The notes under the pieces: generated by a model
What the model was told of the DNA's origin: nothing
Seen by the model: only the letters and a program-made list of their open reading frames with translations
Database searches by the model: none
NCBI GenBank assembly: GCA_903893815.1
Contig: CAITNS010000067.1
Coordinates: 1 to 64,000, forward strand
DNA length: 64,000 nt
DNA from: an uncultured Bacteroidota bacterium
GTDB taxonomy: Bacteria; Bacteroidota; Bacteroidia; B-17B0; Aurantibacillaceae
Direction of reading: 5' to 3'
Part shown: one piece after another, positions 2,232 through 3,308 of the stretch
Numbering within the stretch: the first letter of the stretch is position 1
Layout: each line of letters starts with the position of its first letter
Made by a program: the position numbers and the translations under genes

Positions 2232-3308
2232 ATGAAAAAAAATGCACCCATAAAAAAACAAAAAAACACTTTAAAACCTAAAGTTGTAAAGCCTAACTTA
2301 TTTAAAGATATAAAATCTTTAATTGAAAAAACGAAAGTTCAGGTTGCGTATAATATAAATAGTAATTTAGTATTACTTAACTGGCACATAGGAAAAAGAA
2401 TTCAAGAAGAGATTTTAAAAAACAAACGTGCCGAATACGGAAGTCAAATTGTTGCGACACTGTCGCAACAATTAACTAATGAGTATGGTCAAGGATATAC
2501 GAAATCTTCGTTAACTAGAATGCTTGTATTTGCTAAGTATTATAAGTCAACTCAAAAAGTTGCGACACTGTCGCAACAATTCAGTTGGAGTCACATCATA
2601 GAATTTTTAACTATCAAAGATGATTTAGAGCGTTCATTTTACGAACAAATGACACATATAGAAAATTGGGGCGTTAGACAACTTAGAGAAAGAATAAATA
2701 GCATGTTATTTCAACGTACAGCTATCTCAAAAAAACCAAAAACCCTAATTAAACAAGAACTTAAAAAAAATATATCCAATAAAGTAGTTACAAATACTGA
2801 ATTAGTTTTCAAAGATCCATATCTATTAGATTTTTTAGGCCTAAAAGATGCCTATAGCGAAAAAGATTTAGAAAGCTGCATATTAACTTCCTTACAAAAA
2901 TTCATCATCGAGTTAGGTTCTGACTTTGCATTTGTTGCAAGACAGAAACGAATTATCATTGACTCAGAAGATTTCAGGATTGATTTATTATTCTATCATA
3001 GAGGACTTAAACGACTAATTGCAATAGATTTAAAACTAGGGAAATTTAAAGCGTCGTATAAAGGGCAGATGGAATTATATTTACGATGGCTTGAAAAGCA
3101 CGAAGTTAGAGAAGGAGAAAATGCACCAATTGGTTTAATTTTGTGTGCCGAAAAATCAGAAGAACATATTGAGCTACTTCAACTTGAAAAAAGTAATATT
3201 AAAGTAGCTGAATATTTAACTGCTCTACCTCCAAAAAAATTATTAGAGAAAAAATTACATCAAGCTGTAATTACTGCTCAAAAACAATTCAACTTAAAAA
3301 TTAAATAG
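2232..3308 (+). CDS. DUF1016 (YhcG-type) PDDEXK nuclease-domain protein
   Basis: This is a two-domain protein. Residues about 25-165 are a DUF1016 N-terminal helical domain. Residues about 190-345 are a PD-(D/E)XK nuclease-like domain with D251 in FRIDLLFYH and the D266-L-K268 pair. Family members are often found near restriction or mobile loci and their role is unsettled. The sequence VATLSQQ occurs twice (74-80 and 110-116), each time encoded by an identical palindrome (see repeats). The gene starts 26 bp after gldA, and the next gene starts 1 bp after its stop, so it sits tightly in the transcription unit. Codon use is AT-rich like its neighbours. Confidence 0.85.
   Translation: MKKNAPIKKQKNTLKPKVVKPNLFKDIKSLIEKTKVQVAYNINSNLVLLNWHIGKRIQEEILKNKRAEYGSQIVATLSQQLTNEYGQGYTKSSLTRMLVFAKYYKSTQKVATLSQQFSWSHIIEFLTIKDDLERSFYEQMTHIENWGVRQLRERINSMLFQRTAISKKPKTLIKQELKKNISNKVVTNTELVFKDPYLLDFLGLKDAYSEKDLESCILTSLQKFIIELGSDFAFVARQKRIIIDSEDFRIDLLFYHRGLKRLIAIDLKLGKFKASYKGQMELYLRWLEKHEVREGENAPIGLILCAEKSEEHIELLQLEKSNIKVAEYLTALPPKKLLEKKLHQAVITAQKQFNLKIK
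2451..2469. repeat. palindrome copy 1 inside the DUF1016 gene
   Basis: GTTGCGACACTGTCGCAAC has perfect 9-bp arms around a single central C. It encodes the V-A-T-L-S-Q-Q segment. An identical copy lies 108 bp (36 codons) downstream. Confidence 0.95.
2559..2577. repeat. palindrome copy 2 inside the DUF1016 gene
   Basis: Identical to 2451-2469 and in the same reading frame; the identity continues four more bases (AATT) on the right. The DNA between the two copies is not repeated. Confidence 0.95.

Follow-up and report, generated by a model that had tools for sequence, protein, structure and literature searches.

A gene-specific palindrome within DUF1016/YhcG nuclease genes that changes together with the residues predicted to read it

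The window analysed here, the first 64,000 nucleotides of contig CAITNS010000067.1 (assembly GCA_903893815.1) from an uncultured Bacteroidota bacterium, contains a gene whose product is a typical DUF1016/YhcG protein (PF17761 plus PF06250; COG4804; PADLOC PDC-S02). The features discussed below are collected in Table 1. In a Pfam scan the protein consists of DUF1016_N and YhcG_C, both scoring far above the curated cut-offs (PF17761, E = 4.4e-43; PF06250, E = 1.9e-47), and the PADLOC profile PDC-S02 matches it with E = 9.8e-126. The nuclease catalytic residues D251 (2982-2984), D266 (3027-3029) and K268 (3033-3035) are intact, and these residues and both domains confirm the view of the first-pass annotation that the palindromes described below lie in a gene for a DUF1016 nuclease of PDDEXK type. 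Of 200 full-length DUF1016 genes collected without choice by motif, 198 retain the D-[DE]-K residues. Neighbouring ORFs, read by eye, encode an ABC-transporter ATPase and an aldehyde dehydrogenase, and no methyltransferase adjoins the gene. The gene is the sole DUF1016_N match in its genome, and 115 of 296 sampled genomes of the same phylum have matches above the cut-off, up to 14 in a genome. The family is widespread, and the literature found assigns no function to DUF1016_N: published work places the nuclease domain close to Holliday-junction resolvases and describes the N-terminal domain as being of unknown function (PMC1189080).

Table 1. Features of the DUF1016/YhcG gene, in window coordinates
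Feature	Position	Strand	Basis or remark
DUF1016/YhcG-family gene, 358 aa	2232..3308	+	ORF, Pfam and PADLOC
DUF1016_N domain, read as a ParB/Noc-like palindrome-reading domain	2307..2717	+	Pfam (aa 26-162), AlphaFold and fold matches
Palindrome site 1, 27 bp, AATTGTTGCGACACTGTCGCAACAATT	2447..2473	.	Core 2451-2469; encodes aa 74-80; confined to the window's subfamily
Codons of aa 92-99, start of helix 91-103 (ParB alpha4 equivalent)	2505..2528	+	92/95/99 covary with d7, 96 with d5
Palindrome site 2	2559..2577	.	Encodes aa 110-116; position conserved family-wide
Codons of aa 120-124, start of helix 119-126 (ParB alpha6 equivalent)	2589..2603	+	Covary with d3/d4
Codons of aa 148-149, start of helix 148-156 (ParB alpha8 equivalent)	2673..2678	+	Covary with d3/d2
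YhcG_C PD-(D/E)XK nuclease domain	2805..3257	+	Pfam and conserved columns

The sequence GTTGCGACACTGTCGCAAC occurs twice in this gene, both times in frame and with a spacing of 108 bp (36 codons). It is an odd palindrome of 19 bp, in which 9-bp arms flank one unpaired C. A scan of the window that allows up to three mismatches recovers these two sites alone (0.03 expected), and the whole 3.69-Mb genome has one further site within three mismatches, which bears exactly three; the genome-wide count proposed by the first-pass annotation therefore yields no additional copy within two mismatches. With the amino acids VATLSQ fixed and codons drawn as in the other genes of the window, the palindromic codons would arise with a probability of 1.3e-5 per site. 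Every codon of VATLSQ is set by the palindrome, since each wobble base pairs with a second base of a codon; CTG makes up 1.4% of leucine codons in the window sequence, which is 33% GC. With these probabilities, the initial observation of two identical in-frame palindromes 36 codons apart is not attributable to chance. It had also been argued that they are not a simple tandem duplication, and we agree, because the two copies are separated by DNA that is not itself repeated and because sites 1 and 2 can differ in other genes. REP elements are likewise rejected, since dispersed copies are absent from the genome, which has two copies in all. Across homologous genes, site 1, the duplicate, is confined to the subfamily to which the window gene belongs, and the family-wide position is that of site 2.

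Searched for exact matches to GTTGCGACANTGTCGCAAC, species genomes yielded at least 119 stretches in many phyla, where about four are estimated by chance in the whole collection. Among the matches listed, 79 fall inside a region of DUF1016 similarity or no more than 400 bp from one, almost always at codons equivalent to window amino acids 74 or 110, and three loci carry both copies, also 108 bp apart. Horizontal transfer of one gene does not account for this distribution, because the 19-mer stays while flanks and proteins diverge to ~30-60% identity. Since these loci were selected by the motif itself, homologues were gathered by protein family instead, and this unbiased set underlies the analyses that follow unless stated otherwise.

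Palindromicity at one codon position is conserved in the unbiased set. An in-frame (frame-0) palindrome with at least nine of ten arm pairs is present in 99 of 150 non-redundant genes, versus 2 of 150 after synonymous codons are shuffled within each gene, and palindrome centres in frames 1 and 2 behave as the shuffled control does. About 9% of the 150 genes have no frame-0 palindrome of at least eight of ten pairs, some of these being insert-bearing or broken genes. The palindromes are gene-specific in sequence (for example, TCGTACCAtTGGTACGA, GTGACGCAtTGCGTCAC and TCTCACCAcTGGTGAGA at the second position), and among 139 genes the site is translated into 93 distinct heptapeptides. The suggestion that protein conservation explains the amino acids is thus correct among close homologues, in which VATLSQ is conserved, but fails beyond them. 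The accompanying claim, that conservation leaves the identical codons and the palindromic form unexplained, is sustained by both the per-site codon probability and the shuffling. The first-pass annotation would have taken homologues with varied codons and no palindrome as a sign of chance, whereas the homologues found vary their amino acids and keep the palindrome. A strong DNA-level constraint is therefore hidden in coding sequence, where amino acids shift so that the palindrome stays.

The two arms change together. Among 63 distinct sites, 88% of pair cells are standard pairs, and both-side changes across the arms number 224 cells versus 80 +/- 7 in shuffled data. The arm covariation score is 0.80 versus 0.19 shuffled, and sliding by 1-3 columns gives ~0.20 or less. 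These sites were chosen solely for having at least seven of ten pairs, a choice that favours pairing but does not by itself yield such covariation over four pair types. Mismatches at arm positions 3-8 comprise 7 G-U and 18 A-C cases; given this lack of a G-U excess over A-C, the constraint looks like one on double-stranded DNA rather than on RNA.

Several occurrences of the palindrome stand apart from complete DUF1016 genes. At three loci (L008, L013 and L061) it is intact within short DUF1016 remnants, the remaining gene being gone. In Prevotella (loci L034, L039, L079, L081 and others), the same 19-mer is found in frame, at one or two places in a genome, within unrelated genes for glycosidases, CysS and RAYT-like proteins; GTAT, GTAG or GTGT often precedes it, as in REP elements, and one of these genes has a weak Y1_Tnp match. 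In Methylobacter/Rhodocyclaceae (L018, L036 and L075), the 19-mer and a half-site lie just upstream of a gene for a small HTH regulator, with no adjoining DUF1016 gene. In one genus of the window's phylum (g49), where genomes reach the maximum number of DUF1016_N matches, the paralogues examined differ in their palindromes. We also considered, and rejected, the idea that paralogues in one genome avoid having sites in common: such paralogues share no half-sites, but the same is true of most between-genome pairs of equal divergence.

To relate the site to the protein, mutual information was calculated between half-site bases, numbered by distance from the centre (d), and protein columns encoded outside the palindrome, using 208 genes that include some loci fetched by the 19-mer. 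Half-site bases covary with protein residues, the strongest pairs being d7-S92 (z = 10.4), d3-V148 (8.9), d5-R96 (8.3), d4-I123 (8.0), d3-S120 (6.7) and d2-R149 (5.3), followed by d4-I122, d4-E124 and d7-T95, with d7-V99 close behind. All of these residues are confined to three short segments (92/95/96/99, 120-124 and 148-149), each tied to particular bases. At residue 92, R goes with G (21 of 24 cases), S or T with T (22/30), and K, Q or A with C (15/15). R96 accompanies C (34/40), which is G on the opposite strand, and Y or N at this residue accompanies A (22/22). R149 is found with C in 57 of 58 cases and N149 with A, while R123 pairs with C (14/15) and E124 with G (24/24). These pairings appear chemically sensible and resemble known protein-DNA chemistry. 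The window fits the same code, having S92, R96, S120, I123, E124, V148 and R149 with a half-site that reads C A G C G T from d2 to d7.

Eight residues also predict which proteins share half-sites. For pairs below 42% identity, similarity at these residues correlates with half-site sharing at r = 0.65, versus 0.15 for overall identity, and none of 1000 matched control column sets reaches this value (best 0.34). Because the residues were chosen on the same data, the choice of columns was repeated with whole clusters held out (13 clusters). This gave r = 0.51 versus 0.27 for identity and at most 0.30 for 50 random sets, and the selection repeatedly settled on the same columns. Phylogeny inflates the covariation, in that control DNA windows elsewhere in the gene reach up to 0.33 versus 0.38 at the site, and the case therefore rests on the placement of the hits and on the held-out test.

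The predicted structure of DUF1016_N is suggestive of a ParB/Noc-like reader. An AlphaFold model of amino acids 18-166 has pLDDT 91 and pTM 0.81. The covarying residues fall at the starts of three helices (Table 1). The top 15 Foldseek matches of this model in the PDB are all Noc or ParB proteins, with probabilities of 0.66-0.99 but E-values of 0.13-0.9, and with TM-scores up to 0.51 (query) and 0.63 (target). Profile comparison of DUF1016_N with ParB by hhalign gives probabilities of 52-71 and E-values of 3.8e-5 to 1.4e-4 over 77-78 columns, and its controls (reversed, and the nuclease domain) are negative. Over 41 genomes, the HTH_ParB model matches two DUF1016 loci (E = 3.7e-4 and 5.3e-4), under the family cut-off. 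The whole-protein model has no PDB match at E <= 0.001, and a sequence search of the PDB with the window protein returned no match. ParB and Noc read their sites through helices alpha4, alpha6 and alpha8, with alpha4 R173 reading G at site position 1 and alpha6 residue 201 reading position 6 (PMC7383237). If position 1 is the outer base, as we read it, in both families an R in alpha4 would go with a G at a distance of seven bases from the centre. The Pfam scan detects no CTP-binding ParB domain in the window protein, which is therefore not a ParB, though it resembles the reader.

Additional copies of a gene's own site recur within genes. Allowing up to three mismatches, 13 of 76 non-redundant unbiased genes have a second copy inside the gene (1.05 expected), at subfamily-specific spacings such as -108, +183 and about -39. 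Upstream of the start, copies with at most two mismatches are found in 4 of 106 genes (0.7 expected); with so few, classical promoter repression is not general, and we reject a general promoter operator.

Escherichia coli K-12 has one DUF1016/YhcG gene, yhcG (L226:4328-5455), with three palindromes of core CAGACAnTGTCTG 39 bp apart. Other E. coli alleles have two palindromes or one, and an in-frame deletion has left O157 with one perfect palindrome. At the first palindrome, K92 alleles have C and R92 alleles have G at d7, as the cross-phylum pairings predict, and the later or secondary palindromes do not all obey this rule. Four E. coli yhcG loci (L250, L251, L252 and L409), E. coli B among them, have IS-associated disruptions at the third palindrome, at gene position about 385 or 406, and, judging from the table of matches, yhcG is truncated likewise in BL21(DE3), C and HS. 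It may be that insertions target the palindromes.

Within the window's genus, gldA is followed directly by the aldehyde dehydrogenase gene in several genomes, which have no DUF1016 gene there. A relative (L368) has retained the gene and both palindromes. In another (L372:437-455), nothing remains of the DUF1016 gene between gldA and the aldehyde dehydrogenase gene but a lone palindrome, GTTGCGACAGTGTGGCAAC. Members of the family are frequent on plasmids (455 records) and also occur in phages.

A palindrome that changes in step with predicted DNA-reading residues strongly suggests that each DUF1016 nuclease recognises its own gene. Self-recognition by DUF1016/YhcG proteins is, in our estimation, very likely, and the proposal of the first-pass annotation that the protein binds its own gene at the palindromes receives strong support from the comparative evidence, namely palindrome conservation and covariation. 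In the model that we favour, a dimer of DUF1016_N would read the double-stranded palindrome, one half-site per monomer, and site and reader would diversify together as lock and key within one gene. Taken as a whole, sequence comparison makes it probable that these proteins combine a ParB-like reader with a PD-(D/E)XK nuclease and use a palindrome in their own gene as a private target, most likely as an intragenic operator.

The purpose of self-recognition is less certain, and we advance autoregulation, which the first-pass annotation likewise raised, tentatively, as a reading that could well be right. The palindrome would be a self-contained operator of its nuclease gene, at which bound protein blocks or loops transcription and so holds a dangerous nuclease at a low amount. 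We rank this reading first because it explains the extra intragenic sites, the occasional promoter copies, the privacy of the sites and their placement amid specificity codons. With the site among those codons, reader and site stay together in transfer and recombination; the switch would travel with the gene, and recombination could not easily part it from the specificity residues. In the window, the two identical sites are ~10.3 helical turns apart, a spacing that would be suitable for a pair of dimers bound to the same helical face.

Next in our ranking comes self-directed action of the nuclease, or its tethering, because the catalytic residues are kept, the family is mobile and it belongs to a candidate defence class. 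It is possible, though we give it less credence than autoregulation, that every member writes a private target into the codons of its recognition domain and uses its nuclease against, or has it checked on, this self-site. We grade jointly the forms that this could take: self-directed cutting, exclusion of kin, or a tether that frees the nuclease once the gene is destroyed.

Taken by itself, the proposal that the palindrome is the nuclease's cutting target, with copies of the encoding gene as the substrate, seems to us rather unlikely. Cutting might exclude incoming kin elements, trigger repair-driven copying, or let the protein limit itself through cuts in its gene. Such roles are consistent with the near-universal catalytic residues, with private targets that have no counterpart within two mismatches elsewhere in the genome, with a family that is found on plasmids and in phages and is present or absent at one site in the window's genus, with the palindrome that survives gene loss in L372, and with those E. 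coli disruptions that break at the palindrome. However, an active enzyme would cut its own chromosome, where the window has no adjacent methyltransferase and the sites have no common fixed short motif for one methylase to protect, and the E. coli breakpoints are explicable by the insertion preferences of IS elements.

Also improbable, and more so than cutting, is a tether or integrity sensor, in which the gene itself would keep its bound nuclease inactive until damage to the chromosome, or its degradation by a phage for instance, sets the enzyme free to act. PADLOC lists the family as a candidate defence system (PDC-S02), the site lies among specificity codons and active nucleases are kept, all as such a sensor would have it. 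Deletion of yhcG is reported to be synthetic-lethal with dnaB, dnaN and parE alleles (PMC2672614), so YhcG probably acts in DNA metabolism; together with the likeness to Holliday-junction resolvases (PMC1189080), this makes action on palindromic cruciforms conceivable. Against the tether, one or two sites per genome would demand very few molecules.

It is very unlikely that the conserved feature is an mRNA hairpin serving transcript stability, translation or processing. Both window copies fold as strong RNA hairpins (-16.3 and -11.7 kcal/mol) and the arms covary, but the mismatches lack a G-U preference, and a hairpin leaves unexplained both the residue covariation in three helices and the ParB-like fold. 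Chance, or protein conservation with biased codons, is practically untenable despite the conserved VATLSQ of close homologues, being refuted by the codon probabilities, the synonymous shuffles, the arm covariation and the many heptapeptides with which the palindrome is kept.

If genes specify their own targets, the palindromes would reveal the site of each member, and binding, cutting and regulation thus become testable with the exact sequence, including in K-12. The family would also provide a natural protein-DNA recognition code of more than 100 reader-site pairs, each linked in one gene, which is useful for studying the evolution of DNA specificity.

Parts of this arrangement resemble known systems. 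No mention of the palindromes was seen in the literature found on DUF1016, YhcG, PDC-S02 and intragenic operators, which was drawn mostly from outside subscription journals and bioRxiv; within the same bounds, the intragenic palindrome and recognition code are absent from PMC1189080 and the other descriptions of the family. Type II restriction-modification systems have a cognate methyltransferase beside the nuclease, which the window locus lacks. Like REP/RAYT systems, DUF1016 associates a nuclease or transposase with short palindromes, but REPs are dispersed, whereas the DUF1016 site is private to its gene and fixed within the recognition domain; the Pfam scan detects no Y1_Tnp domain in the window protein. 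Homing endonucleases are also mobile nuclease genes with long, rare targets. Their target is interrupted by the gene, whereas the DUF1016 target is intact inside it, and the empty sites between gldA and the aldehyde dehydrogenase gene in the window's genus do not have the palindrome, unlike a homing target.

The closest likeness is to ParB-parS and Noc-NBS, in which a dimeric reader also recognises a short palindrome, although for DUF1016 we infer both the dimer and the recognition; the covarying DUF1016 residues lie at the starts of the three corresponding helices. In Bacillus subtilis, a parS site lies within spo0J itself. DUF1016 differs in that its predicted reader is fused to a nuclease and lacks the CTP-binding domain, and in that its sites are odd-centred, variable and private to nearly each gene, whereas parS is one conserved site; neither the parS nor the NBS consensus is matched by DUF1016 sites, which differ from them in sequence and centre. 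Intragenic operators, such as those of the lac O2 type, place a repressor site within coding sequence, as the putative DUF1016 operator would, and autoregulation alone, if true, would make the system less of a departure from known kinds. We know of no intragenic operator that acts as a family-wide, phylum-spanning constraint and reshapes the encoded amino acids. The parts are of known kinds; new, as far as we can tell, would be a family of nucleases that each carry, within the recognition domain, a diversifying target of their own.
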